DNA of 64,000 nt from Pelagibacteraceae bacterium AG-430-I06 (GTDB lineage: Bacteria > Pseudomonadota > Alphaproteobacteria > Pelagibacterales > Pelagibacteraceae): positions 1 to 64,000 of the forward strand of contig QCOH01000004.1 in the NCBI GenBank assembly GCA_003209895.1, written 5' to 3'. The notes under the pieces were generated by a model. It had not been told where the DNA came from. It saw nothing but the letters and a program-made list of their open reading frames with translations, and made no database searches. Shown here piece by piece: positions 9,553 to 39,168 of this stretch (its first letter is position 1; every line of letters begins with the position of its first letter). A program made the translations under genes and the position numbers.

Positions 9553-9572
9553 AAAACTTGATTTCAAAGAGA

Positions 9573-12586: not shown

Positions 12587-12595
12587 ATCTCCTTC

Positions 12596-13606: not shown

Positions 13607-13618
13607 AATATTTTATTT

Positions 13619-14542: not shown

Positions 14543-14556
14543 AATTAATTGAAAAA

Positions 14557-15807: not shown

Positions 15808-15810
15808 TTT

Positions 15811-22132: not shown

Positions 22133-22158
22133 GTTTTCTCAAAAAAATATAGTCAAAA

Positions 22159-22187
22159 TTGAAAAATATAGAATAATTTGGTTAAAT
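22159..22187 (+). promoter_or_regulatory. Candidate sigma-70 promoter before the PanB-like gene
   Basis: TTGAAA, a 17-bp spacer, then TTAAAT. The -10 box ends 6 bp before the ATG at 22194, and no Shine-Dalgarno is visible, so the transcript could be leaderless or nearly so. The AT-rich background makes chance matches likely. Confidence 0.35.
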
Positions 22188-22193
22188 ATAAAA

Positions 22194-23926: not shown

Positions 23927-23929
23927 AAA

Positions 23930-24919
23930 TTAATTTAATTTCTTAGAATAATCTTGCTTGGAATGTTTATAAACAGGTAAATAATATTTGAATGTATATC
24001 CCTTGTTTAATGATTTCATGTAAGCTTTGTTCCAAAGAGCGACCCATTGTTGGTAAGTTTTAACTTTGATATTTTCTTTTTTGGCACTTCTTACATAAAA
24101 ACTTGGTAATGGCTCTCTCCCTGAACTTTGCCCAGCTTTATGAAATCTAATGTCCATACTTATCCTAATATTTTTTGAAACATTTGGAAGAGAACAGTGA
24201 ATTAATCTTTTGTCTAAAATAATTATATCGCCAACATCAGCTTCAAGTGGAACCATTTTGCTATACTTATGGATAAGTTCTGAATTTTTTATTTCCACCT
24301 GACCTTTTGATCCGTGGTGGTGATTTAACAAACCTAGTTTATTACTTTTAGGTACAGCCAACATACAGCCGTTCTTAGCATTAGTTTTTGTAAATGGTAT
24401 CCAGACTGTCACCAAGTCAGTTTTGAATCTTGCTTTTTTATTTATAGTTCCTTCATCTTGGTGCCATGGTGTTCTACCAATTAAACCATCCATAAAATTT
24501 TTACCTGAATTTATATTTGGTTTTTTCACCCTAAAAGTTTGAACTGGATTTGAAAAAATTTCTTTACCAATAATTTTCTCAACTACATTTAAAATTTTAT
24601 CCGATTTAATTAAATTGAATATTGACTCAGGATTAAAATATTCAACATTTTCATGTTTTTTAAAGTTTTGTGGGGGTCTATTATTAAAAACTTTTTCAAA
24701 AGTTACCCCAGATTTTTTGGTTAATGCAAAATACTTATCCTGAAACTTTAATTTAAATAATCTCTTCGCTTCCTTCGTTGTAAAGTACTTTTCTATTAGT
24801 TTATTAGCTTTTGCTTCTAAATCATTAAGTACAGGCTTGATATCTTTTTGAAAATTAAGGACGTTTCTTATTCTTATGAAACCTTTGGCTTTTAGCTCTT
24901 TATTTATTTTGTTTTTCAC
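23930..24919 (-). CDS. Phytanoyl-CoA dioxygenase (PhyH)-family oxygenase
   Basis: A 329-residue Fe(II)/2-oxoglutarate-dependent oxygenase. The HxD motif is in TPWHQDEG, the distal His in KRLIHCSLPN, and the 2-oxoglutarate Arg in RISMDIRF. VTVWIPFTKTNAKNGCMLAVPKS is typical of bacterial PhyH proteins acting on small polar metabolites. It is upstream of the DMT permease and 46 bp from livG, both also on the minus strand. It shares only the fold with the oxygenase at 930. Substrate is unassigned. Confidence 0.85.
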   Translation of the reverse strand: MKNKINKELKAKGFIRIRNVLNFQKDIKPVLNDLEAKANKLIEKYFTTKEAKRLFKLKFQDKYFALTKKSGVTFEKVFNNRPPQNFKKHENVEYFNPESIFNLIKSDKILNVVEKIIGKEIFSNPVQTFRVKKPNINSGKNFMDGLIGRTPWHQDEGTINKKARFKTDLVTVWIPFTKTNAKNGCMLAVPKSNKLGLLNHHHGSKGQVEIKNSELIHKYSKMVPLEADVGDIIILDKRLIHCSLPNVSKNIRISMDIRFHKAGQSSGREPLPSFYVRSAKKENIKVKTYQQWVALWNKAYMKSLNKGYTFKYYLPVYKHSKQDYSKKLN

Positions 24920-24965
24920 AGTCTTAGAATCTTAATTTATTAATTAAAATCATATATCGTCCGTA

Positions 24966-25763
24966 TTAAACTGCAAGTGCTTTTCTCATTTCTTCGTCAT
25001 CCATTTTTTTACCTAAATAAGCCTCAATTACAGCGTTATCATCCTTGATCTGGGAAGGGGTTCCCTCTGCTATCTTTTCACCATGATCAAGAACTGTAAC
25101 TTTACTACAGGTGTCCATAACCACTTTTAATATGTGCTCAATTATAATTAGTGTTAAGCCATATTTTTCTTTTAACCGCATTAATATCTTCATCAAATTA
25201 TCAACGTTCACCGGTGATAGACCTGCAGCAGGTTCATCTAACATTAATAACTTTGGTTTTCCTGCAATAGCTCTAGCTAAAACGAGAAGTCTTCTTTGAC
25301 CTCCAGATAATTCACTAGCGTTCATCTCTGCATAATCTGCTAACCCTACAAAGGATAAAAGTTCCATCATTTCTTCTTTAATTACTTTTTCCTGATCCCA
25401 AATTTTTTTTCTACCTATTACCGCATCAATAAACTTGTATGGAACTAAAGTGTGATAACCAGACATTACATTGTTTATCACTGACATATCTTGATACAAT
25501 CTCAATAATTGAAAAGTTCTTGCCAAGCCGAGTTCACCTACTTTATGTGGAGGTTCATTAGTTATATCATGTCCATCAAATTCTATATAACTACCTGGGT
25601 CAGGATCATAAACACCAGATACTAAGTTAAAAAAAGTACTTTTGCCCGAGCCATTTGGTCCAATTATTCCTCTAATTTCATTTTTAGGTAATTCAAAATC
25701 GACTTTATTAATAGCTTTTAAACCACCAAATGCCTTCATTAATTTTTTAGTTTTTAAAAGCAT
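24966..25763 (-). CDS. livG: Liv-type ABC transporter ATP-binding protein (LivG)
   Basis: A 265-residue ATPase of the branched-chain amino acid/amide (HAAT) importer family. Seen: Walker A GPNGSGKST, LARTFQLLRLYQDMSVINNVMSG (LivG hallmark), signature LSGGQRR, Walker B LLMLDEPAAGLSP and switch His in IIIEHILKVV. It overlaps livM by one base (TAATG) and is the last gene of livKMG. With LivF it forms the cytoplasmic ATPase pair. Confidence 0.93.
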   Translation of the reverse strand: MLLKTKKLMKAFGGLKAINKVDFELPKNEIRGIIGPNGSGKSTFFNLVSGVYDPDPGSYIEFDGHDITNEPPHKVGELGLARTFQLLRLYQDMSVINNVMSGYHTLVPYKFIDAVIGRKKIWDQEKVIKEEMMELLSFVGLADYAEMNASELSGGQRRLLVLARAIAGKPKLLMLDEPAAGLSPVNVDNLMKILMRLKEKYGLTLIIIEHILKVVMDTCSKVTVLDHGEKIAEGTPSQIKDDNAVIEAYLGKKMDDEEMRKALAV

Positions 25764-26752
25764 TATTTACTAGCCACCCCTTGTTTTTTTTTAAATCTTC
25801 GGTCTATGAAGTATTTATCAATAAAACCGCCAATACCTTTTGGCATAAATAAAATTGTCAAAACAATAGTTAAACCAAATATAAATAATTGATATTCATA
25901 AAGCGGTCTTGTTAAATCGTAAACAATGGTAATTATCACAGCTCCGATTATTCCTCCCCATATGTGTCCTAAACCACCAAATACAACCATGGCAAGGAAA
26001 GTTACCATTTCAATAACAGTGTAATTATTTGGATGGATGTAACCCGGTGGTAAATGAGCGTAAACAGCTCCTGCAGCTCCAGCAAACATGGCGCTTAAAA
26101 TAAAAGCTAACATTTTATGTTTTTTTACATTTATTCCTGATGCAGCTGCAGAAATAGGATCTTCTCTAACTGCCATGAAGGCTCGTCCGATTGATGATCT
26201 TAAAACACTGAAAGAGAAATATATTGCAATTAACATTATAGGCATTGAAATATAATAATACTTATCAGGTGTATCAAAAGTAATCCCAAATAGTTCAGGT
26301 TGAGATATACTTGAAATACCATAAGTCGAACCAAAAAATTCACCGTTCTCAATAAATAGTCTTATAGCTTCACCACCTCCTAAAGTGGCAAGTGCTAAAT
26401 ATGGTCCCTCAAGTCTAAAAGATGGAATTGCAAAAGCAACACCAAACAAACCTGTTACTAAAATAGCAACTGGCAAAGTTATCCATAGCGATGCACCTAG
26501 ATACATAAACATACATCCAGCAGTATAAGAACCAACAGCATATAAACCTACGTGTCCAACAGTAACTTGTCCGCAATAACCCTTAACAATATTCAAACCA
26601 GCTGCAACAATGATGTTTATAAAAATTAGACTTGATAAATGAGATTGATAAAGATCGGTAAAAAAAATTGATGGTATTGCCATCAAAATAAAAAAAGCAA
26701 TAATGAAACCTAAAAAAGGATACTGTCTAATAATATCTTTAAATTTTTCCAT
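25763..26752 (-). CDS. livM: Liv-type ABC transporter permease (LivM)
   Basis: A polytopic permease of about 329 residues with roughly ten helices. It has NIVKGYCGQVTVGHVGLYAVGSY near the N-terminus and the permease loop RSSIGRAFMAVREDPISAAASGINV. The ORF track starts at 26797, but that start lies inside a strong hairpin between livK and livM. I prefer the ATG at 26752 (MEKFKDIIRQYPF), just after it. It works with LivH to form the membrane channel. Confidence 0.9.
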   Translation of the reverse strand: MEKFKDIIRQYPFLGFIIAFFILMAIPSIFFTDLYQSHLSSLIFINIIVAAGLNIVKGYCGQVTVGHVGLYAVGSYTAGCMFMYLGASLWITLPVAILVTGLFGVAFAIPSFRLEGPYLALATLGGGEAIRLFIENGEFFGSTYGISSISQPELFGITFDTPDKYYYISMPIMLIAIYFSFSVLRSSIGRAFMAVREDPISAAASGINVKKHKMLAFILSAMFAGAAGAVYAHLPPGYIHPNNYTVIEMVTFLAMVVFGGLGHIWGGIIGAVIITIVYDLTRPLYEYQLFIFGLTIVLTILFMPKGIGGFIDKYFIDRRFKKKQGVASK

Positions 26753-26776
26753 TATTTTTACTCTTGAAACTAAAAA

Positions 26777-26803
26777 TGAGCGGTGGTTTTTAATCACCGC
26801 TCA
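26777..26803 (-). terminator. Intrinsic terminator/attenuator between livK and livM
   Basis: Perfect 9-bp inverted repeat TGAGCGGTG/CACCGCTCA with a 9-nt loop. On the minus strand it is followed by ATTTTTAG, a short U tract. It begins 15 bp after the livK stop. It would let most transcripts end after the binding protein while some continue into livMG. Confidence 0.8.
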
Positions 26804-26817
26804 TAAATTTTTATTTA

Positions 26818-28008
26818 TTACAGACCGTCGGTAGGTTTAAAAGTAACTGTACCAGCTACTGCTGTCTTCCAGTTTTTACCACCTCTAGTGTATTCAATCA
26901 TAACAGGCGTTTTGTTACCATCTCTACACTCCGGAGATCCTGCTGCACAAAAACTTATCGGCCCAGAAGCTAATCCAGTAAAGTTTCTAATGTTAGCTAT
27001 TGAATCTCTAACAGCGTTTCTATCAGCAGCTAAATTGCCAGTAAAGTTAACTTTTTCTAAAGCTGGTTTTAGCATGTCTAATAGATCTTGCATTTGTGAA
27101 AAATCATGGCCCGGTGTTACACCGTATTTACTTTTAACCATCTTCACAAATTTTTTAGCAATTGGTCGTGTGTCAGATGCCGCAAATGCAGCAGAGTAAA
27201 CAACACCAACAGCTGCTTTACCAGCGTTTGTTGGTACTTCTACTTTTGATGCTACAGAATTTGCAACTCTATGAACACCTTTTGGTATTCCAACCTCGTA
27301 AGATTGTACAAGCATACGAACAGTTTCATCAACTAATCCTGATAAAACAATTACATCTGGGTTAGCTGCTTTAGCTTTCATTAAATATGATCTAAAGTCA
27401 GTTTCTTTTTCACCAGCTTGAACTTGATAAACAGGATCAACTCCATATTCATCTTTCATATACTTCATCATCTCTTTTGCAAAGACCATACTCGCTTGGT
27501 CAGGTACATAGATATAAGCTATCTTTTTCCCTTGTTGTTCAGCAGTAAACTTTCCTTGCACAATTTTATAAAATCTAGATGAAACAGGTACTCTGAATAT
27601 ATATTCACTACCCGTCATCGTTATTTTTGAACTTGTCGAGTGAGGTATAATTTGTGGAACGCCAGCTTTAGTTATTACAGGTACCATAGGTAATGTAACA
27701 GAACTACAGCTAGATCCAATTATAACGTGGACTTTGTCTTGGTAAGCAAGCTTCGTTGCATTTGCTACACCTTTTTCAGACTTACACTCATCATTGTAAA
27801 GAGTTAAATCAATTTTTTTACCATTAATTCCACCCTGAGAGTTCCACATTTTGACCGTGTCTTCAATTAGCATTCCATGCTTGTAACCAACATCTGACAG
27901 CATTCTGAAAGAAACACCAATTTTGATGTTATCAGCTTGCGCCAATGTCGTAACTAGTAAACTAGCAGTGAACACTAGACTTGAAAAAATAATATTTATT
28001 TTCTTCAT
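26818..28008 (-). CDS. livK: Liv-type periplasmic substrate-binding protein (LivK)
   Basis: A 396-residue type I periplasmic binding protein. A signal peptide is clear (KINIIFSSLVFTASLLVTTLAQA, cleavage after AQA). The mature start NIKIGVSFRMLSDVGYKHG and the IIGSSCSSVTLPMVPVITKAGVPQIIPHSTSSKIT block, which contacts the ligand carboxylate/amine, mark the HAAT family. A Cys pair late in the protein (ISFCAAGSPECRDG) may form a disulfide. The ligand is not predictable. The neighbouring CoA-ligase/dehydratase genes hint at an organic acid rather than a branched-chain amino acid. A strong GGGGG ribosome site lies just upstream of the ATG. Confidence 0.92.
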   Translation of the reverse strand: MKKINIIFSSLVFTASLLVTTLAQADNIKIGVSFRMLSDVGYKHGMLIEDTVKMWNSQGGINGKKIDLTLYNDECKSEKGVANATKLAYQDKVHVIIGSSCSSVTLPMVPVITKAGVPQIIPHSTSSKITMTGSEYIFRVPVSSRFYKIVQGKFTAEQQGKKIAYIYVPDQASMVFAKEMMKYMKDEYGVDPVYQVQAGEKETDFRSYLMKAKAANPDVIVLSGLVDETVRMLVQSYEVGIPKGVHRVANSVASKVEVPTNAGKAAVGVVYSAAFAASDTRPIAKKFVKMVKSKYGVTPGHDFSQMQDLLDMLKPALEKVNFTGNLAADRNAVRDSIANIRNFTGLASGPISFCAAGSPECRDGNKTPVMIEYTRGGKNWKTAVAGTVTFKPTDGL

Positions 28009-28031
28009 TATTTCCCCCTTATTGTTTTTAA

Positions 28032-28066
28032 AATTCCTCGGCGTTTTTAATTGACGACTAGGAATT
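28032..28066. promoter_or_regulatory. Imperfect inverted repeat in the livK-livF divergent promoter region
   Basis: AATTCCTCGGCG (28032-28043) and CGACTAGGAATT (28055-28066) are 12-bp arms with two mismatches, separated by 11 bp. It lies in the 106-bp space between divergent livK and livF and overlaps the candidate livF -35 box. It could be an operator or a 5'-UTR hairpin in the livK transcript. Confidence 0.5.
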
Positions 28067-28079
28067 AATTTAATTAAAT
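28051..28079 (+). promoter_or_regulatory. Candidate promoter for livF-livH
   Basis: TTGACG, a 17-bp spacer, and TTAAAT, ending 35 bp before the livF ATG. The -35 box sits in the spacer/right arm of the inverted repeat, so a bound regulator would block it. Confidence 0.45.
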
Positions 28080-28114
28080 GCAGGAAAACATATTAAAGAC
28101 TTAAAAACAACAGC

Positions 28115-28840
28115 ATGCTTAAAATAAATAATTTAGTTTCCGGTTACGGCAGTGTCCAAATTTTAAATGGTTCAAATATGGAAGTAAAAAATCAATCCAT
28201 AGTTGCATTACTTGGTGGTAATGGAACTGGTAAATCTACTATTCTTAAAGCGTGTTCAGGAATAATAAGAGCTTGGAAAGGAACAATAAGTTTTGATGGT
28301 GAGGAAATACAAAATCTTGCTCCCCATAAAATTGTTGAAAAAGGTTTAGTCCAAGTAACACAAGGAAAAGATGTTTTCCCAGCCATGACTGTTTTAGAAA
28401 ACTTAAGATTGGGTGGATTTGTATTAAAATCAAATATTGATTTAAAAAATAACCTAGAAAAAGTTTTTAATTATTTTCCAAGATTAAATGAGAGAAAAAA
28501 TCAACTTGCAGCTACCCTATCAGGTGGAGAATTACAAATGCTTTGTATCGGTAGAGGATTAATGTCTAACCCCAAAATGATAATGTTAGATGAACCTAGT
28601 GCCGCTTTAGCGCCCCAGATTGTAATGGATATATTTAAAAATATTAACAAAATTAGAAAAGATGGACTTACAGTATTAGTAGTTGAACAAAACGTAAGAA
28701 TGGCTCTTTTACTTGCAGACTATGGATACGTTATAAAGGATGGAGCTATTAATGTTGAAGGAGATTCAAAAAAATTAATGTACGACGAGTCGGTGAAAGA
28801 CTCTTATTTAGGCGGGGGAGGTACTACGGTTAATGTTTAA
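28115..28840 (+). CDS. livF: Liv-type ABC transporter ATP-binding protein (LivF)
   Basis: A 241-residue ATPase. It begins MLKINNLVSGYGSVQILNGSNM, the typical LivF start, with Walker A GGNGTGKST, the LivF-specific VTQGKDVFPAMTVLENLRLG, signature LSGGELQML, Walker B MIMLDEPSAALAP and VVEQNVRMAL. It is divergent from livK and overlaps livH by 8 bp. Splitting the five Liv genes into livKMG and livFH arms is less usual than a single operon. Confidence 0.93.
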   Translation: MLKINNLVSGYGSVQILNGSNMEVKNQSIVALLGGNGTGKSTILKACSGIIRAWKGTISFDGEEIQNLAPHKIVEKGLVQVTQGKDVFPAMTVLENLRLGGFVLKSNIDLKNNLEKVFNYFPRLNERKNQLAATLSGGELQMLCIGRGLMSNPKMIMLDEPSAALAPQIVMDIFKNINKIRKDGLTVLVVEQNVRMALLLADYGYVIKDGAINVEGDSKKLMYDESVKDSYLGGGGTTVNV

Positions 28841-29870
28841 AAAACTTAGATTAACTTCAAAAATTGAAAATGCTTTAATGCTTACTTTTACATTAATTTT
28901 TTTAATATTCATAAGCATAAGTCCGGATATGAACCTTGAGTCTCTTAAAGGTGTTTTGATAATAGGTATTACAGTTGGAATAATTTATGGATTAGTCGCT
29001 GTAGGAATTTCTTTAATTTACACTGGTTTAGATGTAGTAAATTTTTCACATGGTGAATTTTTTATGCTTGGCGCTTTCACTGGCTTAACCGTCTATAATT
29101 TTCTCATAGATGGAGAAATAATTTATAAAATATTTCCTGAGGCATACGGTTGGGTAGGATATGTAATTGGTCTTTTCTTAGCCTTTGTAACTATGGGTTT
29201 ATTTGGAATATTGATTGAGCGAATATTTTTAAGACCACTAACTAAAAAAGGTGGTGGTTACACAGTTGCTGGTATGGGTATAATAATATGTGGTTTTGGT
29301 TTATCAGTTATTTTACAAAACGTAGCTTACGTAATTTGGGATCCAACAGCCCACCCATTCCATGCTGATTTAGGTTTGCCTATAACACTTGGAGGAGTGA
29401 CGCTACCAATGACTTACCTCTGGATGTTAGTAACAGGTTTTATTGTTGCTGGTGCTTTATATTTTTTTTTAAATAAAACTAAAATGGGGTTAGGGGTAAG
29501 AGCCGTTGCTTATTCAAAAGTAGTATCAAACCTTGTTGGGATAAATGTTCCTTTATATATTTCAATTATATTTGGGATCGCATGTGCTTTAGCAGGAATA
29601 GCTGGTACTTTAGTTGGCCCAACTTACCAAGTAGTTATTTATATGGGATATATAATTTTATTAAAAGCTTTCGCGGCTGCCGTGGTCGGAGGCTTTGGTA
29701 GTTTACCTGGTGCCATTATTGGTGGTTTTACAGTTGGACTTTTTGAAACCGCATGTGCCTTCTTTATATCAGGTAGTCACAAAGATGCTTACGCATTCCT
29801 CTTAATGATCGTAGTTTTACTAATAAAGCCAACTGGTTTTTTTGGTGTTCAAGTCAAAATGAAAGCTTAA
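28833..29870 (+). CDS. livH: Liv-type ABC transporter permease (LivH)
   Basis: A 345-residue permease, longer than E. coli LivH (308). It has about nine helices and the family blocks VAVGISLIYTGLDVVNFSHGEFFMLGAF and GLGVRAVAYSKVVSNLVGINV, plus AAAVVGGFGSLPGAIIGGFTVGL near the end. It pairs with LivM. Its stop overlaps the start of the ketopantoate-reductase-like gene by one base, which links importer and catabolic genes in one transcript. Confidence 0.92.
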   Translation: MFKKLRLTSKIENALMLTFTLIFLIFISISPDMNLESLKGVLIIGITVGIIYGLVAVGISLIYTGLDVVNFSHGEFFMLGAFTGLTVYNFLIDGEIIYKIFPEAYGWVGYVIGLFLAFVTMGLFGILIERIFLRPLTKKGGGYTVAGMGIIICGFGLSVILQNVAYVIWDPTAHPFHADLGLPITLGGVTLPMTYLWMLVTGFIVAGALYFFLNKTKMGLGVRAVAYSKVVSNLVGINVPLYISIIFGIACALAGIAGTLVGPTYQVVIYMGYIILLKAFAAAVVGGFGSLPGAIIGGFTVGLFETACAFFISGSHKDAYAFLLMIVVLLIKPTGFFGVQVKMKA

Positions 29871-30814
29871 TGATTAATAAAAATACAAAAGTTGCTGTAC
29901 TTGGCGCAGGAGCTATGGGTTGTCTCTTCGGCGGTTTATTAGCCGAAAAAGGTTTAAGCGTAGTACTTATTGATGTGTGGAAAGAACACGTAGATGAAAT
30001 AAATAACAAGGGTCTAAAAATGATGGGCCATGGTGGCGATAGAACAGTTAAAATTGAGGCAACTACAGACCCAAAAAAACTACAACCAGTTGATGCTATA
30101 ATTATAATGTGTAAAGCAACAGCTTTAGAACAGGCGCTTACGAACTCGAAGAATATTATTGGAGACAAAACCATGCTTATGTCTTTTCAAAACGGAATAG
30201 GCCACGAGGAAATTATGCAAAATATAGCTGGCAAAGATAAAGTTTTGGGTGGATCAACTACTCAAGCATCTAGTATTCAAGGACCTGGAATTATTCAAAA
30301 CCACGCGAGCTTACCATCTTGGATTGGAGAATATGAAGGTGGTCATAGCGAAAGAGTCAAAAATCTTGCTGAAGTATTTACTGCACATGGGTTAGAAACT
30401 TTTGCAGAAGAGAATATTAAAAGAAGAAAATGGATGAAATTATTTGCACTTACAGCCATAGGTCCTCTTTCAGCAATATTCGATCTTCACCATACTGATC
30501 TTTACATATCTAACAAAAATCAAAATATGTCTCGAAATCTAGGTAAAGAAATAATCTTAGAAACAAGAGAAGTCGCTAAAGCAGATGGTGTTGATGTAAG
30601 TGAAAAAGATTGTCTTGAAATGTTCAACAGAATTATAGACTCAAGACAAACCAATAAATCTTCCATGGCTTTTGATGTACTAAAGCACAGAAAAACTGAG
30701 ATAGATTTTATTAGCGGAGCTGTATCAAGAATTGGAAAAAAACATGGGATTAAAACACCACTAAATGATTTAATGTACAATATTATTAAAATCAAAGAAG
30801 GAATGTATATCTAA
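29870..30814 (+). CDS. Ketopantoate reductase (ApbA/PanE)-family oxidoreductase, atypical
   Basis: A 314-residue NAD(P)-dependent 2-hydroxyacid dehydrogenase of the PanE fold. The Rossmann motif is VLGAGAMGCLFGGLLA, followed by FQNGIGHEE, and SSMAFDVLKHRKTEIDFISGAV, which holds the conserved Ser and Glu. The helix that in true PanE reads KLxxNxxxNPLTA is KLFALTAIGPLSA, so both pantoate-site Asn are replaced while Lys is kept. It is coupled to livH, which suggests a reductase/dehydrogenase step on the imported compound rather than pantothenate synthesis. Confidence 0.8.
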   Translation: MINKNTKVAVLGAGAMGCLFGGLLAEKGLSVVLIDVWKEHVDEINNKGLKMMGHGGDRTVKIEATTDPKKLQPVDAIIIMCKATALEQALTNSKNIIGDKTMLMSFQNGIGHEEIMQNIAGKDKVLGGSTTQASSIQGPGIIQNHASLPSWIGEYEGGHSERVKNLAEVFTAHGLETFAEENIKRRKWMKLFALTAIGPLSAIFDLHHTDLYISNKNQNMSRNLGKEIILETREVAKADGVDVSEKDCLEMFNRIIDSRQTNKSSMAFDVLKHRKTEIDFISGAVSRIGKKHGIKTPLNDLMYNIIKIKEGMYI

Positions 30815-30818
30815 ACCA

Positions 30819-32738
30819 GTGTCAAAAGAAATCATTTGGAAACCATCTAAAGACTTAATTAAAAGCTCTAAACTTACTAAGTTTTTAAATTTTTCAAAAA
30901 CAAAAGATTATGATGATCTTGAAAAAAAAAGCTCGTCTGATCCTGGATGGTTATGGGATAATGTAATTAAATTTGCTGATTTAAAATTTTTTAAACCATA
31001 TTCTAAAATTATGGATGAAAGCAAAGGTATACCTTGGACTAAATGGTGTGTAGATGGCAAAACAAATATCGTACTTAATTGCATTGATCGCCACAAAGAT
31101 AAAGAATTTTTTAAGCAAACTTTTATTTTTTCCGAGAGGGAAGACGGAGAAGAAGACTCAATTACTTATGAAGAATTTGATAAAAGAATCTCAAAGGTTG
31201 GAAATACATTAAAAAATAATGGTTTCAAAAAAGGTGATGTAATAGCACTCTATATGCCTCAATTTATTGAAACCTATATTGCTTACTTTGCTATTTTAAA
31301 AATAGGTTGTATCGTTTTGCCTCTCTTCTCTGGTTACGGCTCTAAAGCTGTAATTGAAAGATTAAATATTTCAAAGGCAAAAGGTATTTTCACAGTAGAT
31401 AAAACTTTTAGAAAAGCAAAAGAAATAAGAATGTTTGATCAAATAAAAGATGATCTGAACCAAGTTAATTCATTAGTAAAAATATTCCTTTTGGGAAATG
31501 ACAAAGGTAAAAAAATATTTAATTGGAGTAACTTTGAAAATGTATCAGATAAATTAAAAACGGAAGAAATGAATGCTGAAGATCCAGCTATAATACATTT
31601 TACCTCTGGTACCACAGGAAAACCAAAAGGATGTGTTTATACCCACATAGGCCTTGTAGCAAAAATGGCATTTGATGAAGGAATACTAGCTGACTTTAAA
31701 CAGACCGACGTTCATTTATGTATGGCAGATATGGGTTGGATGGTTGGATCGAAATCAGCAACTATTGCATCATCACACGGTGCTAAAATGATAATTGCAG
31801 AAGGTGTTCCAGATTTTCCAAATGAATTAAGATTTTGGAAATTAATTGAAAAATATAAAGTATCTTGGACCGAGTTATCCCCTGCATTAATTAGAAATCA
31901 AATGACAAAAAATGAAATACTTTTTAAAAATTTAAATTTAGATTCATTAAGAATTGTTTGTACAGGCGGGGAACCATGGACAGAAAAACCATGGAAGTGG
32001 TTATTTGAATTTATTGGTAAATCAAAAGTACCTATTATGAATTCAGCTGGTGGAACCGAGGTATCTGGATCTATACTGCACTGTTGCTTGCATAGACCCT
32101 TTAAAGTTGGTTCTTTTAATGCACCCATTCCTGGAATGAGTGCAGATATTGTGGATTCAAAAGGCGAAAAAGTATCTGCTGATCAAATGGGAGAATTGGT
32201 AATGAGAAAATCATCAATAGGATTAACTAAAAGTTTATGGAATGATGATGAAAGATACATACAGAATTATTGGAACGTAATAAAAAATGACTTATGGGTT
32301 CATGGCGATTTAGCTAGTAAGGATAAAGACGGTCACTGGTATCTTCACGGTAGGTCAGACGATACAATTAAAATTTCAGGTAAAAGAATTGGTCCATCAG
32401 AGTTAGAAAGTGTAATTGTCAAAAGTGGTAAAGTCAAAGAGGCTGCGGCCGTTGGAATTCCAGATGAAGGAAAAGGATCTAAGATAATTTTATCTATAGT
32501 TCCTCTTGAAAGTGAAAAAAACCCTAAAGAAAACTTGTTTATTGATTTAATTATAAAAGATTTAGGAAAATCATTTAAGCCTGATAAAGTAATATTTGTT
32601 AAGGATTTACCTAAAACAAGAAATATGAAAATAATGAGGAGAGTAATAAAATCGTGTTTAACAAATGAGGACCCTGGCGATATTTCAACTTTATTAAACC
32701 CAGAGTCAGTAGAGGAAATAAAACAGCATGCAATTTAA
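30819..32738 (+). CDS. AMP-forming acyl-CoA synthetase (acetyl/acetoacetyl-CoA synthetase-like), GTG start
   Basis: A 639-residue adenylate-forming ligase. It has an ACAS-type N-terminus (PWTKWCVDGKTNIVLNCIDRH), the P-loop FTSGTTGKPKG (~residue 260), the A5-like SAGGTEVSG, HGDLASKDKDGHWYLHGRSDD, the hinge ISGKRIGPSELE and a C-terminal KTRNMKIMRR carrying the adenylation Lys. It starts at GTG, 4 bp after the previous stop. It would activate a carboxylic acid with CoA and ATP. It overlaps the crotonase gene by 11 bp, so acid activation followed by a crotonase step is likely. Confidence 0.9.
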   Translation: MSKEIIWKPSKDLIKSSKLTKFLNFSKTKDYDDLEKKSSSDPGWLWDNVIKFADLKFFKPYSKIMDESKGIPWTKWCVDGKTNIVLNCIDRHKDKEFFKQTFIFSEREDGEEDSITYEEFDKRISKVGNTLKNNGFKKGDVIALYMPQFIETYIAYFAILKIGCIVLPLFSGYGSKAVIERLNISKAKGIFTVDKTFRKAKEIRMFDQIKDDLNQVNSLVKIFLLGNDKGKKIFNWSNFENVSDKLKTEEMNAEDPAIIHFTSGTTGKPKGCVYTHIGLVAKMAFDEGILADFKQTDVHLCMADMGWMVGSKSATIASSHGAKMIIAEGVPDFPNELRFWKLIEKYKVSWTELSPALIRNQMTKNEILFKNLNLDSLRIVCTGGEPWTEKPWKWLFEFIGKSKVPIMNSAGGTEVSGSILHCCLHRPFKVGSFNAPIPGMSADIVDSKGEKVSADQMGELVMRKSSIGLTKSLWNDDERYIQNYWNVIKNDLWVHGDLASKDKDGHWYLHGRSDDTIKISGKRIGPSELESVIVKSGKVKEAAAVGIPDEGKGSKIILSIVPLESEKNPKENLFIDLIIKDLGKSFKPDKVIFVKDLPKTRNMKIMRRVIKSCLTNEDPGDISTLLNPESVEEIKQHAI

Positions 32739-33498
32739 AGATATAATATATGAAGTTAAAAGTGATTATGCTTATGTAACTATAAATAGACCCAAAGTAT
32801 TAAACGCGTTCACACCCGTCACTCTTCAAGAATTGAAAACTGCTTTAGATAGTGCTGAAAAAGATAAAAATGTTGGCGTAATTATTTTATCTGGCGCTGG
32901 GGATAGAGCTTTTTGTGCAGGAGGAGATATGAACTGGGAAAGTTCAAAAGAATTTCAAGACCATGAATATGAATTTCATATCCACTTAACAAAATGTAGT
33001 AAACCAATTATTGCAAAAGTAGATGGATATGCAATTGGAGGAGGAAACCATATGGCATATTTCTGCGATCTGACAATTGCTAGTGAGAATTCAATTTTTG
33101 GACAAAACGGACCAAGGGTTGGTTCACCCGCGGGTGGAGCAATCGTTGCTCACTCTGCGAATATTTTAGGTCATAAACGTGCAAGAGAAATGTGGATGAC
33201 GTGCAAACGATATTCCGCAAAAGAGATGATGAATTGGGGATTAGTCAACTCTGTTGTAAAAAGAGAAAAATTAGATGAGGAAGTTAAAAAATATGGGGAT
33301 GAAATATTAAAAGGAGCACCCACTTGTATAAAGATTTTAAAGGCTAGTTTTAGAAAACAGTTTGAAGAAATTTTAAAAATTACCCAAAAAGGTATGGTTG
33401 AAGAAGTTGCTCCTGGTTATTTTAAAACTGGTGAACAGACAGAAGGCGCTAAAGCCTTTCTAGAAAAAAGAAAGCCAAATTTCAAAAAATTTAGATAA
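32728..33498 (+). CDS. Crotonase-fold enoyl-CoA hydratase/isomerase, MenB/BadI-like
   Basis: A 256-residue crotonase. The oxyanion hole residues are in DRAFCAGGDMNW and GYAIGGGNHMAY. The later block FGQNGPRVGSPAGGAIVAHSANILGHKRAREMWMTCKRYSAKEMMNWGLVN is much closer to MenB/BadI than to ordinary hydratases. MenB closes a naphthoquinone ring and BadI opens 2-ketocyclohexane-carboxyl-CoA. SAR11-type bacteria use ubiquinone, so a ring-opening or C-C cleaving catabolic role is the better guess. It is tightly coupled to the CoA ligase. Confidence 0.85.
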   Translation: MQFKDIIYEVKSDYAYVTINRPKVLNAFTPVTLQELKTALDSAEKDKNVGVIILSGAGDRAFCAGGDMNWESSKEFQDHEYEFHIHLTKCSKPIIAKVDGYAIGGGNHMAYFCDLTIASENSIFGQNGPRVGSPAGGAIVAHSANILGHKRAREMWMTCKRYSAKEMMNWGLVNSVVKREKLDEEVKKYGDEILKGAPTCIKILKASFRKQFEEILKITQKGMVEEVAPGYFKTGEQTEGAKAFLEKRKPNFKKFR

Positions 33499-34652
33499 TG
33501 AAAAAAATTTTTTTTTTATTCATTCTATTATTTTACACACCTGCTAATTCTGCTGAAGTAAGTAAAAAAGAATGGAATAAAAAATTTCCTAACGTATCTT
33601 ATCCAAAAGATAATTGCGAAAAATGTAGTAGAGCTCACGCTGATTGGGCTTATGGATGGTATAGAAAAGCTACTTTAATGAATAGAGATTATAAATCAAA
33701 TGGTGGACTAAAATCTCTTAATTTTAACAAATCTAAAAATCCATCTAAGATTAAAAAAAATATAAATAGTTTACCTAAAAATATTTTCAATTTTGTAAAT
33801 AATCGAGACATTATGAGTTTAATGGTCTACGAAAACGGTGAACTAATTTACAATTGGAAAAGGGACTATGTTGATAATAGTAAACCTATAAACGGAGAAA
33901 GTAGATCTAAATCAATTGTTGGTGTTGTGGTAGCAACTTTAAAATGCCAAAATAAAATTGATCTTAATAAAAATCATTCATTCTATACAAAAGAATTAAA
34001 AGATTCTTACTACGGAAATGTTACTGTTCTTCAATCATTAAATATGATGGCCCGTGACGAGTACATAGTTGGCTATGAATTAAATGAGATACACAGAAAA
34101 AAAATTGATATACTAACAAAAGCTAATAAATATCGAAGCGATTTAGAATCACCAGGCGAAAATAAATTTAGATATCACAATATTAACACTGATTTAATTA
34201 TGCTAGATCTATTTAATATCTTGAAAGGGAAAAAGGGTTTCAAAAAGTGGTTCGAAAAAAATATAGTTGAACCTGCTGGCTTCTCAAATAAGTCAAAACT
34301 TTTACTAGACAAAAAAGGCAACGGTATAGGTTCTTCAAGTTTTTACCTTTCAAGAGAGGATTGGATGAGATTTGGAGTTTATACTATGTCTTTACTTAAT
34401 GATCCCAATAAATGTGAGGGTAAGTTTTTAAGAGACTCATTTAATAAAGCTCCAAAAACTTTTAAAAAATTTGCACCTAATTATGCTATGCAGTTTTGGC
34501 TAAATGGATATGGCGTAAAAGATCTCGTTCAGATGCGGGGACACGGTTTAAGGCTTTCATTATTAGACTGGAAGAATAATAGAATAATTCAAACTAACGG
34601 GTTTGCTATAAGCTGGAAACCTCAAAAATTAATAGATCTTATTTGGAATTGA
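33498..34652 (+). CDS. Exported serine hydrolase, beta-lactamase/6-aminohexanoate-dimer hydrolase-like
   Basis: A 384-residue protein with an N-terminal signal peptide (FFLFILLFYTPANSA). It shows serine beta-lactamase-fold motifs: SxxK as SRSK (S135-K138), YxN as YHN in FRYHNINTDLIM, and MRGHGLRL near the C-terminus in place of KTG. A CxxC pair (DNCEKCSRAHADW, ~40-43) follows the signal peptide and may be oxidised in the periplasm. It begins on the last base of the crotonase stop. It probably cleaves an ester, amide or lactone before uptake by the Liv importer. The target is unknown. Confidence 0.78.
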   Translation: MKKIFFLFILLFYTPANSAEVSKKEWNKKFPNVSYPKDNCEKCSRAHADWAYGWYRKATLMNRDYKSNGGLKSLNFNKSKNPSKIKKNINSLPKNIFNFVNNRDIMSLMVYENGELIYNWKRDYVDNSKPINGESRSKSIVGVVVATLKCQNKIDLNKNHSFYTKELKDSYYGNVTVLQSLNMMARDEYIVGYELNEIHRKKIDILTKANKYRSDLESPGENKFRYHNINTDLIMLDLFNILKGKKGFKKWFEKNIVEPAGFSNKSKLLLDKKGNGIGSSSFYLSREDWMRFGVYTMSLLNDPNKCEGKFLRDSFNKAPKTFKKFAPNYAMQFWLNGYGVKDLVQMRGHGLRLSLLDWKNNRIIQTNGFAISWKPQKLIDLIWN

Positions 34653-34653
34653 T

Positions 34654-35742
34654 ATGAAAATTAAATCAATCAAAGCAATCACTTTGAGTATGCCATTCAG
34701 CCATGGAGGAAAGAAAGTAATTTTTCATGGAAAAGAATGGAAAAGTTTAGAATTTAACTTAGTAAAAATTGAAACTGACAAAGGTATTACCGGTTGGGGT
34801 GAGGCTTTTGGTTATACAAGTTGGAAAGCTGTAAAAATTGCTATTGAGGATATGGTTGCTCCACTACTCGTTGGAAAAGATATCATCAATATACCAGAGC
34901 TTCTTTTAACACTTCAAAAATCTTTACATTTATTTGGTAGATACGGGATTACAATGTTTGCGATATCTGGAGTTGAAATAGCATTGTGGGATGCTTTAGG
35001 AAAAGAAAAAAATAAGCCAATCCACGAATTATTAGGAAAAAAAAATAAAGATTTATTTAAAGCCTATTCTAGCCTTTTTAGATATGGAGATCCAAAAATT
35101 ATTGAACAAAAATGTAAACAATCATTAGACGATGGTTATCAAGCTATAAAATTACATGAAATAGAAAATAATTGTATTGAAGCTGGAAGAAAAGGCACAG
35201 GCAATCTTCCTTTAATGTTAGATACTAACTGTCCTTGGACTTATGAGGAAACTCTAGCCAAAAAAGATTTTTTAAAAAATATGAAGCTTACTTGGTTAGA
35301 GGAACCTATATATCCACCAGAAGATTATGAAGCTCTTGCTAAATTAAATAAAGAGCTTGGAATACCAATAGCATGTGGAGAGAATGCATGTACAGAATTT
35401 GAGTTTAAGTCAATGATTAAGCAAAAAGCTGCTACATATATTCAGCCGTCAGTAATTAAAGTTGGTGGTATTTACGAAATGTATAAAATTATAAAACATG
35501 CAGAAAAAAATAATATTTCTGTAATGCCTCATACTGCTTATTTTGGACCAGGATTTCTTGCCACTCTTCAACTAGCATCCTTGATGAAAAAAGAAACATA
35601 TATAGAGAGATTTTACCTTGATATTGACCAAGAGTTCTACCCAAATTTTAAAAAAGCTATGAATGGAAAATATAAATTACCCTCAGGTCCTGGCTTAGGT
35701 ATTGACTTAGACTATAAAAGGTTAAGTAAATATGAAATATAG
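34654..35742 (+). CDS. Mandelate racemase/muconate lactonizing enzyme-family (enolase superfamily) protein
   Basis: A 362-residue enolase-superfamily enzyme. The capping domain is N-terminal. The barrel carries a KLH base motif (AIKLHE), metal ligands in LMLDTN, WLEEPIYP and ACGENA, then QPSVIKVGG and MPHTAYFGPG, where the His would be the second base. The Asp usually paired with that His (QPDxxxxGG) is Ser here. Members dehydrate or epimerise acid sugars and related carboxylates. Between a hydrolase and a CitE-like lyase, a dehydratase giving a 2-oxo acid is a reasonable inference. Confidence 0.88.
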   Translation: MKIKSIKAITLSMPFSHGGKKVIFHGKEWKSLEFNLVKIETDKGITGWGEAFGYTSWKAVKIAIEDMVAPLLVGKDIINIPELLLTLQKSLHLFGRYGITMFAISGVEIALWDALGKEKNKPIHELLGKKNKDLFKAYSSLFRYGDPKIIEQKCKQSLDDGYQAIKLHEIENNCIEAGRKGTGNLPLMLDTNCPWTYEETLAKKDFLKNMKLTWLEEPIYPPEDYEALAKLNKELGIPIACGENACTEFEFKSMIKQKAATYIQPSVIKVGGIYEMYKIIKHAEKNNISVMPHTAYFGPGFLATLQLASLMKKETYIERFYLDIDQEFYPNFKKAMNGKYKLPSGPGLGIDLDYKRLSKYEI

Positions 35743-36373
35743 ATCAGTTTTATTTGTTCCTGGTCATGAGGAAAAAAAAATAAAAAAAGCATATACTTTA
35801 GACGCTGATCTAGTTGTAATTGATTTAGAATCTACAGTTCCTGATAATGAAAAACAAAATGCAAGGAAAATTATTAAAAATTGCAAAGTAGATAAAAAAA
35901 AAACTTATATCAGGATTAACAATATTGAAGATTTAGACTTTGTAGTTAAAGAGGAATTTATTGGTATTTTTCTTCCTTTTACCGAAAGCAGAGAACAACT
36001 TTTAAATATTGATAAAATTTTAAAATCAAACGAAAAGCTTAAAACAGATATAATTCCGATTATAGAAAGTGAAAAGGGAATTGAAAACCTTAAGGAAATT
36101 TGTGAGTTTAAAGAAAGAATAAAAGTTATCTCTTTTGGATCACATGATTTAGCTAAATCTATTAATCTTAAAGTATCTGATGATGAAAATGAAATTCTTA
36201 ATTATAGAAAACTTATAGTCTCACATTCAAAAGACCCTATTGATACTTCATATCTTAATTTCAAAGATTTAATAGGTTTTGAGAAGTCATGTAATTTAGC
36301 CAAGAGCATCGGGTTTGCTGGAAAAGCTTGTATCCATCCTGGACAAGTTGATATATCAAATAAAATATTTTAA
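35732..36373 (+). CDS. HpcH/HpaI aldolase / CitE-like lyase, short form
   Basis: A 213-residue member of the CitE/malyl-CoA lyase family. It begins YRSVLFVPGHEEKKIKKA, has DLVVIDLESTVPD with the acidic residue that supports Mg binding, PIIESEKGIENL with a metal Glu, ISFGSHDLA and GKACIHPGQ. It is shorter than CitE (about 290); the C-terminal lid is missing and the central part is reduced. It overlaps the upstream enolase-family gene by 11 bp and the following Idh-type gene by one base. It may cleave a 2-oxo acid or CoA thioester to pyruvate, acetyl-CoA or glyoxylate-type products. Confidence 0.83.
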   Translation: MKYRSVLFVPGHEEKKIKKAYTLDADLVVIDLESTVPDNEKQNARKIIKNCKVDKKKTYIRINNIEDLDFVVKEEFIGIFLPFTESREQLLNIDKILKSNEKLKTDIIPIIESEKGIENLKEICEFKERIKVISFGSHDLAKSINLKVSDDENEILNYRKLIVSHSKDPIDTSYLNFKDLIGFEKSCNLAKSIGFAGKACIHPGQVDISNKIF

Positions 36374-37413
36374 TGAAAAATAAAACCAAAATAGCCGTGG
36401 TTGGTATTGGGTTAATGGGCAGCCAACATTTAATAGCTATTAAAAATTCTAAAAAAGCAGTTTTGCATTCAATAGTGGATATAAACGAAAGGTCAAGAGC
36501 GCACGCCAAAAAGTTTAACGTTCCATTTTACAAAAACTCATCAGCATTAATTAAAAACAATAAACCTGACGCTGTGATTGTTGCAACACCTAATCAATTT
36601 CATGAAAAGCATACTATAAGCTTTTTAAATGCTAAAATTCCTGTTTTATTAGAAAAACCAATCTCTAGTAACATCCAAAAAGCCAAAAAAATTATTTCAT
36701 CTTCAAGAAAAAATAAGACTCATTTACTAATTGGATATCACAGGCGGCACAATTCAATTTCAACAAAAGTTAAAAATAAAATAAATAATGGTAAATTAGG
36801 AAAAATAGTATCAATTAATGTTATGTGTTGGTTATATAAAAATAAAGAATGGTTTAAAGAAAAATGGAGAGTAAAAAAGGGCGGAGGGCCTCTTGGTATA
36901 AATCTTGTTCATGATATCGATTTAATTTGTTATTTGTTAGGACCTGTTGAGTATGTACAGGCATCATCTTCTAATAAAATCAGAAAATATGATGTTGAAG
37001 ATACAGCGGTAGTAAATTTTGTTTTTAAATCAGGAGCATTAGGTGTTCTGAGCGTTTCAGACACAATAGTATCACCGTGGAGTTACGAATTAACCGCAGG
37101 TGAAAACCCCGCTTATCCAATAACAAATCAATCTGCTTACTACATTGGTGGTACAAAAAGCTCAATACAATTTCCAAATTATAAAGAGTGGTACAATAAA
37201 AAAGAGAGAAGTTGGTGGAAGCCAATATTACATAAAGATGAGAGCACTCGCGAAAGTAGATATACACTTACAAACCAGATTAATCATTTATGTGATGTTG
37301 TTAATAAAAAAACAAAACCTAAAATTACCGGAGAAGATGGTTTGTTATCACTTAAAATATTCGCAGCAATTATTAAAAGCGCAAAAACAGGAAAAAAAGT
37401 AAAAATTAAATAA
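36373..37413 (+). CDS. Gfo/Idh/MocA-family dehydrogenase
   Basis: A 346-residue NAD(P)-dependent dehydrogenase. It has VVGIGLMGSQHLIAI, VIVATPNQFHE, the catalytic Lys block LLEKPISSNIQKAKK and the substrate-domain GGGPLGINLVHDIDLI. It belongs with inositol or sugar-acid dehydrogenases. The start overlaps the lyase stop (TAATG). Its 3' end overlaps the convergent MhpD-like gene by 8 bp. It is presumably a dehydrogenation step in the same catabolic route. Confidence 0.88.
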   Translation: MKNKTKIAVVGIGLMGSQHLIAIKNSKKAVLHSIVDINERSRAHAKKFNVPFYKNSSALIKNNKPDAVIVATPNQFHEKHTISFLNAKIPVLLEKPISSNIQKAKKIISSSRKNKTHLLIGYHRRHNSISTKVKNKINNGKLGKIVSINVMCWLYKNKEWFKEKWRVKKGGGPLGINLVHDIDLICYLLGPVEYVQASSSNKIRKYDVEDTAVVNFVFKSGALGVLSVSDTIVSPWSYELTAGENPAYPITNQSAYYIGGTKSSIQFPNYKEWYNKKERSWWKPILHKDESTRESRYTLTNQINHLCDVVNKKTKPKITGEDGLLSLKIFAAIIKSAKTGKKVKIK

Positions 37414-38176
37414 AATCTAAATTTATTTTACCTAATGATCTAAAGTCGACTTTAAGTTTGTCGCCTTTATTGACTTTAAAAGGCTGTATAACCGAACCAG
37501 TCATAAACCAATCACCCTTTTTAAAAGTTACAGGATCATCTTTAAACTCATCAATTATACATTTAATTGCTATTTTTGGACCAGCTCGCTTTTCTCCTTT
37601 AAAAAAAGGTTCTGTTACTTTTCCATTTAAATTTATTTCAACTTGAATTGTGTCTAAGTCAACTTTATCCAGATTTTGTATTTTATCTCCAACAACTATT
37701 GCTCCAGCACCACCATTATCTGCAATATTTAAATTCATCATTCCAACTGGATCTAAACCTTTTTTAGAATCTGAATGAACTCTTGTAGATACAAGTTCTA
37801 AAGCTATATAAGCCTCGTAGTTTCCTATTTTATTTTCAGCACCAGGTACCATTTTTGTATCCTCTAAAAATTTTAAACAAAATTCACATTCAAGAATACA
37901 ATCAGGTACTTTACTGTATTCAATTTTTGACGGGTTTATTAAAACTGTTTCATCTATAATTTTTCCAATCATGGGACCTTCGACTTTTGCACCGTCCTGT
38001 AAATTCTTTGATACTAATCCAATTTTCCAGCCAACTGTTTTTTTCTTTAAGACAGCATGAAATTGTTTTTGAATTGCGTGAGAATCTTCTCTATTTTTTG
38101 GAAGTTCATCTGATTTAAGTTGAATTAAATCTCTTTTTATCCATGCATCTGCCAATTTTTCTGCTAATGTACTCAT
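37406..38176 (-). CDS. 2-oxopent-4-enoate hydratase / fumarylacetoacetate hydrolase-family protein (MhpD-like)
   Basis: A 256-residue FAH-superfamily enzyme. Seen: VGWKIGLVSKNLQDGAKVEGPMIGKI, the metal-binding CILECEFCLKFLED (ExE pattern), YEAYIALELVSTRV, and MTGSVIQPFKVNKGDKL at the C-terminus. These match MhpD/HpaH hydratases and related decarboxylases acting on 2-oxo-enoic acids. It is divergent from the DUF1907 gene, with only 17 bp between start codons. It fits a pathway in which the enolase-family enzyme makes a 2-oxo acid. Confidence 0.87.
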   Translation of the reverse strand: MSTLAEKLADAWIKRDLIQLKSDELPKNREDSHAIQKQFHAVLKKKTVGWKIGLVSKNLQDGAKVEGPMIGKIIDETVLINPSKIEYSKVPDCILECEFCLKFLEDTKMVPGAENKIGNYEAYIALELVSTRVHSDSKKGLDPVGMMNLNIADNGGAGAIVVGDKIQNLDKVDLDTIQVEINLNGKVTEPFFKGEKRAGPKIAIKCIIDEFKDDPVTFKKGDWFMTGSVIQPFKVNKGDKLKVDFRSLGKINLDFI

Positions 38177-38193
38177 ATCCTATAAGTAATCAC

Positions 38194-39168
38194 ATGAAGC
38201 TGAAATTTGAAAGTGGAAAATTCGCAACACCTTCTCTAGAAGATGTAAAAAAAGCATTGTTAATTGGACTAAAAGAGAATTACGAACAAGTAAATATTGA
38301 AGTTGTCGACTGCCCAAACTTAAAAGATTGGGGATGTCCATCTGAGGGAATTTCTGGGAATGAAAAAATAATAGATGTAGGGGGAGAACCTTATATGCAC
38401 GATAAAAGATACATTGGTACAGAATTCGATTATAAGGAAATTGCTAAAAATATTGGCTCAGAAAAATCTTATGCATTAGGTGCCGGATCTGGAGCTATGT
38501 CTTGTTTACAGGGACACTGTGGCGAGTTGGTTATTAATGAAAATTTTATTACCTCAGAGTCAAAATCTATAATCGCGAGAGTCGGAAAGAATAAAGAGTG
38601 TATAGTTAGTAAATACACTGCAAAAAAGCACGGAGGTTTATCAAATATTTATTACTCAGATGGAAAAAAAGGAAAGGTAATTCAAATAAAAATTAAAAAA
38701 AGAATAGGAAAGCAAGGGTCTTTATCTCAAGCGATGAGACAATCATTAAAAACCCATCTTCCAGTAAAGGGTAATAGCCATGTAGCTTTAGCAGGTATCA
38801 TTAGAATTCTTAATGGAAAAATAAAATCACACGTTCAACCAGATTATGATGATGTTAAAATTGATTACTATGATCCAAATCAAATGAAGTGCGTAAAAGA
38901 CTTTTTACAATTTTATGAACCTGTAGGACCAGAGCTACAATGTTACTCAGTACTTTGGACTGGAGATCCTACTGGTGGTAATTTAAATCTTAGAGAGTCA
39001 GGCGAACATACTCATTTTCATTCTTATAAACATTTGAAAGATGCAGGACATTATCATTTTGATGTTTCACCTGAAGAAATTAACTATATTGGGTATTTTA
39101 ATATTCCGAAAGAAGTGCATAGAGTTAACAATATTTATAAAGAATTAACCAATAAAAAATCAGCTTAA
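38194..39168 (+). CDS. DUF1907 / C11orf54-like putative zinc ester hydrolase
   Basis: About 324 residues. The listed ORF begins at 38143 inside the divergent gene; the ATG at 38194 (MKLKFESGKF) is the better start. From memory it aligns along its length with human C11orf54: DVGGEPYMHDKRY, ALGAGSGAM, GKVIQIKIKKRIG and the metal site GEHTHFHSYKHLKDAGHYHFDVSPEEINYIGYF (HxH...H pattern). The human protein is described as a zinc-dependent ester hydrolase of unclear physiological substrate. Here it sits at the end of the catabolic cluster and may open a lactone or ester. Confidence 0.82.
   Translation: MKLKFESGKFATPSLEDVKKALLIGLKENYEQVNIEVVDCPNLKDWGCPSEGISGNEKIIDVGGEPYMHDKRYIGTEFDYKEIAKNIGSEKSYALGAGSGAMSCLQGHCGELVINENFITSESKSIIARVGKNKECIVSKYTAKKHGGLSNIYYSDGKKGKVIQIKIKKRIGKQGSLSQAMRQSLKTHLPVKGNSHVALAGIIRILNGKIKSHVQPDYDDVKIDYYDPNQMKCVKDFLQFYEPVGPELQCYSVLWTGDPTGGNLNLRESGEHTHFHSYKHLKDAGHYHFDVSPEEINYIGYFNIPKEVHRVNNIYKELTNKKSA

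Follow-up and report, generated by a model that had tools for sequence, protein, structure and literature searches.

Which compound might a SAR11 bacterium take up and degrade with a Liv-type transporter whose genes run into those of a coenzyme A (CoA) ligase, a crotonase, an enolase-superfamily enzyme and a CitE-like lyase? This block lies in the window analysed here, a stretch of 64,000 nucleotides (positions 1 to 64,000 of contig QCOH01000004.1, assembly GCA_003209895.1) from Pelagibacteraceae bacterium AG-430-I06. The genes are conserved as a unit, and genomes without them show a recognizable empty site. The reading favoured here, with modest confidence, is a portable SAR11 island that imports and degrades a carboxylic acid without an α-amino group, most likely hydroxylated, sugar-acid-like or lactone-forming.

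Conservation of the gene block

A sample of 149 genomes was drawn around that of the window, most of them from its genus, family and order. The original prediction had made its reading depend in advance on the genes being conserved together, and they are, with order and overlaps fixed. The crotonase is present at identities of at least 94% in 19 of the 149 genomes, 17 from the same genus (including that of the window) and 2 from a second genus, and the enolase-superfamily enzyme (at least 86% identity) and CitE occur in the same 19. Genome G013 holds only partial enolase and CitE copies, both on one contig. The PanE-like protein has nearly the distribution of the crotonase, except that it is missing from G011 and also present in G001 and G085. 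These counts are lower bounds, since G008, scored negative for the core, holds the dehydrogenase gene idh at a contig end.

A second scan, restricted to a single genome per species, found 68 loci. All have Pelagibacteraceae or Pelagibacterales in their titles, most are single-cell genomes by name, and the titles show no evident cultured isolate. The order livGMK-livFH-panE-acsL-menBl-enol-citE-idh (acsL, ligase; menBl, crotonase; enol, enolase-superfamily enzyme) is kept across them, with panE-livH-livF inverted in locus L086. In the window, livF-livH-panE-acsL-menBl-(β-lactamase-like)-enol-citE-idh form one overlapping plus-strand run (28115–37413 in the open reading frame (ORF) list) with eight successive junctions of −8, −1, +4, −11, −1, +1, −11 and −1 bp. 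Genes from livF to idh had been predicted to overlap or lie at most 5 bp apart, and the observed spacings of −11 to +4 bp are conserved across the 68 loci: the junctions are −11 bp for enol-citE (61 of 61 loci) and acsL-menBl (59 of 64), and −1 or 0 bp for menBl-enol (60 of 61) and livH-panE (56 of 56). The genes livK, livM, livG and phyH diverge from this run on the opposite strand, so that livK and livF are a divergent pair; phyH adjoins livG in many loci, where it is 45–100% identical. The block is under purifying selection: ratios of nonsynonymous to synonymous polymorphism (pN/pS) of the core genes are mostly 0.01–0.27, with a higher value of 0.48 for the divergent PhyH of locus L095.

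Island boundaries and chromosomal settings

The edges of the island are defined by genome G003, which has no cluster and in which talB and fah are convergent with a 4-bp overlap. The same two genes enclose 22133–37405 in the window, and the island therefore spans about this interval; it begins with the PanB-like gene (22194), ends with idh and is approximately 15.3 kb long. Between talB and fah there are about 250 bp in G029 and one 241-residue ORF in G030. Towards the left, the conserved unit extends through phyH and the EamA-like and PanB-like genes; the EamA-like gene is syntenic in G046 and L095. The block occupies different chromosomal settings, between talB and fah in the window versus lpx-type genes in L036 and G046.

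The FAH-like hydratase and the DUF1907 protein, originally counted as members of the cluster, fall outside its core. The gene fah is chromosomal backbone that adjoins talB where the island is absent, and FAH is present in several island-free genomes; DUF1907 is full length in only 17 of the 68 loci. In G046 and L095 the island genes occupy another place in the chromosome, and the panB-like gene, DUF1907 and an FAH-like gene (40–85% identical) lie near them. DUF1907 and FAH are thus recurrent neighbours, not required members. In the island-free genome G029, fah is broken into two parts (L205:9518-10027).

Only 5 of the 68 loci have a complete copy of the β-lactamase-like gene, and these copies are 98% identical. 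The gene sits exactly between menBl and enol (window, L045, L047 and L087), where its neighbours are only about 70–95% identical. The higher identity suggests that this cassette was exchanged recently, and its product has a likely signal peptide.

Ligand pocket of LivK

Asp121 and Glu226 of Escherichia coli LivJ and LivK hold the ammonium group of the amino acid ligand. When the island LivK is aligned with E. coli LivJ, D121 is replaced by Ser, Y150 by Ala, Y202 by Leu and E226 by Ala or Thr, while S79 and T102 are kept and a conserved Arg stands beside the D121 position. This combination of lost ammonium-binding and retained residues argues for a carboxylate ligand without an ammonium group, and leans towards a LivK that is not an ordinary branched-chain amino acid binder. 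AlphaFold models of LivK and of the crotonase were too poor for a fold search (predicted local distance difference test scores of 47 and 32, respectively) because the alignments are shallow.

Uptake of ordinary branched-chain amino acids followed by leucine or valine catabolism would account for the Liv-type transporter and for a ligase distantly like acetoacetyl-CoA synthetase. In genome G347, apparent leucine-degradation genes (identified from ORF sizes only) also lie beside a related ligase and a crotonase that is truly BadI-like. Besides the replaced D121 and E226, however, the block has no carboxylase, acyl-CoA dehydrogenase or lyase of the leucine or valine pathways, and the G347 crotonase belongs to another clade; this explanation is highly improbable. 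The adjacent ligase and crotonase of G347 were considered as an orthologous pair and rejected, as that crotonase is of the BadI type.

A proposed CoA arm

Trp414 of acetyl-CoA synthetase closes the acetate pocket. In the island ligase, the synthetase motif DTWWQTE aligns with NSAGGTE; the Trp pair is replaced by Ala-Gly, with Gly at the second motif Trp, and Trp414 is not kept. The substitution suggests a larger acyl pocket.

The nearest characterised families of the crotonase are BadI and MenB, and NCBIfam badI and menB are among its top matches. It keeps the oxyanion Gly-Gly, Gln154, Gly156 and Ser161. His occupies the position of Glu144 and Gly that of Glu164, both catalytic glutamates of enoyl-CoA hydratase; relative to E. 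coli MenB, S161 is kept, D163 is Ala, Y258 is Phe and the active-site loop is shorter. D163 and Y258 are retained by all BadI and MenB sequences in the set. Alphaproteobacterial crotonases at 55–58% identity have the same His and Ala, with Phe or His at Y258, and BadI/MenB relatives of lower identity retain Val, Gly, Asp and Tyr at the compared positions. In the tree, the His-type group is split from BadI/MenB, grouping with the Celeribacter type in 99/100 (100/100 in the group test), and the island crotonase lies outside the MenB/BadI clade. This subfamily is common to a roseobacter and other Alphaproteobacteria, and we know of no tested function for it.

The residue changes and the strongly supported split do not support BadI ring opening and make a simple hydratase unlikely. 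Possible ring opening by a MenB/BadI-like crotonase had been suggested originally. Alicyclic acids are opened in a BadI-type reaction when cyclohexanecarboxylate or benzoate is catabolized, and such a role would fit the NCBIfam matches, the adjacent CoA ligase and one relative near aliA/aliB-like genes in G328. Given the replaced Asp and Tyr, the shorter loop and the separate clade, together with the lack of an acyl-CoA dehydrogenase in the block, such a role is very unlikely.

PanE-like and PanB-like proteins

Compared with ketopantoate reductase, the PanE-like protein keeps K176, E256 and N98 and carries N180L, N184G and R31V. An Asp in its LID-W-EHV stretch is common to the best Protein Data Bank match, 3wfi, which we take to be an NAD-dependent D-mandelate dehydrogenase. 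The retained catalytic Lys and Glu, the lost Asn180 and Arg31 and the Asp in common with 3wfi fit oxidation with NAD.

A PanB-like gene lies approximately 7.5 kb from panE in cluster-bearing genomes and is 98% identical in G046. Its product has lost D45, D84 and E114, the metal ligands of PanB, as well as K112; of seven positions checked, H136 and the base E181 alone are kept. That a conserved locus contains both a PanB-like and a PanE-like gene could point to a pantoate or pantothenate module, but with these PanB residues missing, a much stronger PanB match (approximately 250–285 bits) elsewhere in many genomes of the genus and the other island enzymes left unexplained, the chance of this is remote. 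On Mesorhizobium and Bradyrhizobium plasmids (L208–L210), its nearest plasmid relatives, at 54–57% identity, stand in a conserved cluster with ribokinase, sterol-desaturase-like, Rieske and FAD-oxidoreductase genes, and are annotated as PanB though without the PanB metal ligands.

A proposed acid-sugar arm

The enolase-superfamily enzyme keeps the metal ligands Asp, Glu and Glu and the His, with KxH in place of KxK and QPS in place of QPD. It thus departs from mandelate racemase (MR)-type acid-sugar dehydratases and from 3,6-anhydro-L-galactonate cycloisomerase, for which the KxK motif, the Asp-Glu-Glu ligands and the Asp-His dyad are listed for SCO3480 (PMC9706016). The KxH/QPS signature is common to relatives at about 40–61% identity, whose genes have TRAP or ABC transporters and dehydrogenases as neighbours.

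In CitE, the metal-site Glu and Asp and the substrate Arg are present and the RIN, PIIES and SFGSHDLA motifs align, with Ser in the usual Glu-Asp motif. The protein is only 213–220 residues long in 61 loci, and the C-terminal lid with its catalytic Asp is absent. The top NCBIfam match is RipC, at 110.6 bits versus a cut-off of 375. A CitE-type protein of Octadecabacter has a long C-terminal extension that the island protein lacks. The best NCBIfam match of Idh, inositol 2-dehydrogenase, is below cut-off.

Two island-free genomes of the same genus, G003 and G007 (L200 and L201), carry TRAP genes, an NAD-dependent epimerase-type dehydrogenase and an enolase paralogue at 61% identity; an HpaI/GarL-type aldolase directly follows the paralogue in G007 only, in the place that CitE holds in the island. 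In Octadecabacter arcticus, TRAP, MR-type, BKACE and CitE genes stand in series. From these contexts, enol-citE-idh may be read as an acid-sugar-like arm with retro-aldol cleavage.

Proposed pathway

We infer the substrate class and the order of steps as follows. LivKHMGF would take up the acid. The PanE-like enzyme would oxidize a 2-hydroxy acid with NAD, or reduce a 2-oxo acid, and the ligase would convert an acid bigger than acetate or propionate to its CoA thioester. The His-type crotonase would catalyse a step other than ordinary enoyl-CoA hydration or the standard MenB/BadI reactions. In the acid-sugar arm, Idh would oxidize a hydroxyl, the enolase-superfamily enzyme would remove water or open a ring by β-elimination, and the short CitE/HpcH-type protein may cleave the resulting 2-oxo acid by a retro-aldol reaction. 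The cyclic or lactone-forming acid originally predicted as substrate is possible. More tentatively, and with some doubt, the island may encode an undescribed aerobic pathway of widespread uncultured SAR11 lineages. Its substrate would be a hydroxy acid from the dissolved organic matter of the sea, whether cyclic, a lactone or branched; its crotonase would catalyse a new reaction, and its CitE variant would split a free 2-oxo acid and not a CoA ester.

Several points weigh against the proposed island function. Most annotations depend on homology that scores well under the NCBIfam cut-offs. LivK specificity is read from a low-identity alignment, and the residue roles come from general knowledge of model enzymes, the alignments having been made in this analysis. 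The CoA arm and the acid-sugar arm, moreover, need not act on one compound.

This last point leads to the main alternative, that two pathways with separate substrates are joined in one operon, a CoA arm (PanE-like protein, ligase and crotonase) and an acid-sugar arm (enolase, CitE and Idh). The genes citE and idh diverge faster (about 70–80%) than panE, menBl and enol; the crotonase has a ligase but no enolase beside it in Leisingera sp. M527 and G169; and enolase relatives elsewhere occur without a ligase or crotonase of the island types. Within SAR11, however, the arms were not seen apart in the 149 genomes, contig-end remnants aside, and menBl and enol overlap or abut almost throughout, which makes separate pathways rather unlikely.

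Gene content and surroundings of the island

Family assignments for window proteins were made with Pfam and NCBIfam profiles. Every enzyme and transport family of the original prediction was found in its place by ORFs, Pfam and NCBIfam; its gene list had overlooked the PanE-like, β-lactamase-like, PhyH, EamA and PanB-like genes. All features are collected in Table 1.

Table 1 Features of the island and its flanks in the window
Feature	Position	Strand	Basis
Divergent PanB-like protein, 270 residues, left island end	22194–23006	+	PF02548 match at 22368–22946
EamA/DMT-like membrane transporter	23003–23926	−	Weak NCBIfam match: carboxylate/amino acid/amine transporter
PhyH-family 2-oxoglutarate-Fe(II) dioxygenase	23930–24919	−	PF05721, E = 3.2e-20
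livG, ABC ATPase	24966–25763	−	ORF and synteny
livM, ABC permease	25763–26797	−	ORF and synteny
livK, periplasmic binding protein, altered ligand pocket	26818–28008	−	PF13458
livK/livF divergent intergenic region, presumed promoters	28009–28114		
livF, ABC ATPase	28115–28840	+	ORF and synteny
livH, ABC permease	28833–29870	+	PF02653 (BPD_transp_2)
PanE-like 2-hydroxyacid/2-oxoacid dehydrogenase, probably NAD-dependent	29870–30814	+	PF02558, PF08546; best PDB match 3wfi
acsL, acetyl/acetoacetyl-CoA-synthetase-like acyl-CoA ligase	30819–32738	+	PF16177, PF00501, PF13193
menBl, MenB-like crotonase, separate His-type subfamily near MenB/BadI	32728–33498	+	Enoyl-CoA hydratase/isomerase family
β-lactamase-like serine hydrolase, optional cassette	33498–34652	+	PF00144 below cut-off, E = 1.4e-4
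enol, enolase-superfamily (MR/MLE) enzyme, KxH and QPS signature	34654–35742	+	PF13378, PF02746
citE, short CitE/HpcH-type lyase without C-terminal lid	35732–36373	+	PF03328
idh, Gfo/Idh/MocA dehydrogenase, right island end	36373–37413	+	PF01408, PF02894
fah, FAH/MhpD-like hydratase, flanking backbone, not core	37406–38176	−	HpaH match below cut-off
DUF1907 protein, flanking, not core	38143–39168 (start more likely 38188)	+	PF08925, E = 8.4e-59

In the livK/livF intergenic region, promoter-like sites were not above chance frequency, and promoter and terminator scans both gave nothing above chance. In profile searches the fah product resembles 2-oxo-hept-4-ene-1,7-dioate hydratase. Additional genes are inserted at some loci: a 288-residue ORF with no NCBIfam match between livK and livM in G046 (L204:1605-2468), a γ-glutamylcyclotransferase-like ORF (identity read from sequence) between citE and idh in others, and further Gfo/Idh/MocA-type proteins after idh, among which the 376-residue one alone was scanned.

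To the left of the island, glycosyltransferase, nucleotidyltransferase and epimerase genes (8338–18212) look like a surface-polysaccharide region. At 18635–19721, pntA is in two overlapping frames (194 and 209 residues) versus a single 366-residue ORF in G003, a frameshift that is either real or from the assembly.

Comparison with known systems

Among acid-sugar pathways, the comparators are D-galacturonate degradation via galactarolactone cycloisomerase and the 3,6-anhydro-L-galactonate cycloisomerase route (PMC9706016). They have a dehydrogenase, an enolase-family enzyme and an aldolase or lyase in series, the layout of the G007 paralogue cluster. The island differs in KxH and Ser in place of the second Lys and the Asp of the SCO3480 active site, in a CitE-like protein instead of an HpaI/GarL aldolase, in the added CoA ligase and crotonase, and in Liv rather than TRAP import. 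The itaconate/citramalyl-CoA pathway (RipC/CLYBL lyases) likewise brings together a ligase, a crotonase and a CitE-type lyase, but the island crotonase has no hydratase glutamates, its CitE has no C-terminal lid and the RipC score is far below cut-off.

A plasmid cluster of Leisingera sp. M527 (NZ_CP081040.1; L125) has a 58.6% identical crotonase. Adjacent to it are an enzyme of the acetoacetate-CoA ligase type and a hydratase with about 25% identity to the window fah product. Unlike the island, the cluster has TRAP import and a molybdenum hydroxylase, with no enolase, CitE or Idh near. Together with FAH-type proteins, the TRAP transporter and the hydroxylase, this crotonase of the island subfamily and its ligase-type neighbour make up a second uncharacterized pathway. 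The molybdenum hydroxylase beside the Leisingera and G169 crotonases prompted consideration of the furoyl-CoA (Hmf) pathway, which was rejected, as no such hydroxylase domain was found in the genome of the window (78% complete).

In marine SAR202, an expanded enolase superfamily has been connected with resistant dissolved organic matter (PMC6946804); this is a parallel and not evidence for the island. Each protein family of the island is already known. The open papers searched contain no description of the gene set, of its portability or of several of its active-site departures, subscription papers being outside the search, and searches there for SAR11 binding-protein assays and for the rhizobial PanB-like cluster likewise gave nothing directly to the point.

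Implications for SAR11

SAR11 bacteria, which rank with the most abundant ocean cells, retain only few genes. A 15-kb block held under purifying selection at different chromosomal positions in such gene-poor cells therefore points to a compound that is worth the competition. The island offers a defined route to that compound, through assays of a single binding protein, a single ligase and a single crotonase, and it marks a crotonase subfamily common to SAR11, a roseobacter and other Alphaproteobacteria.

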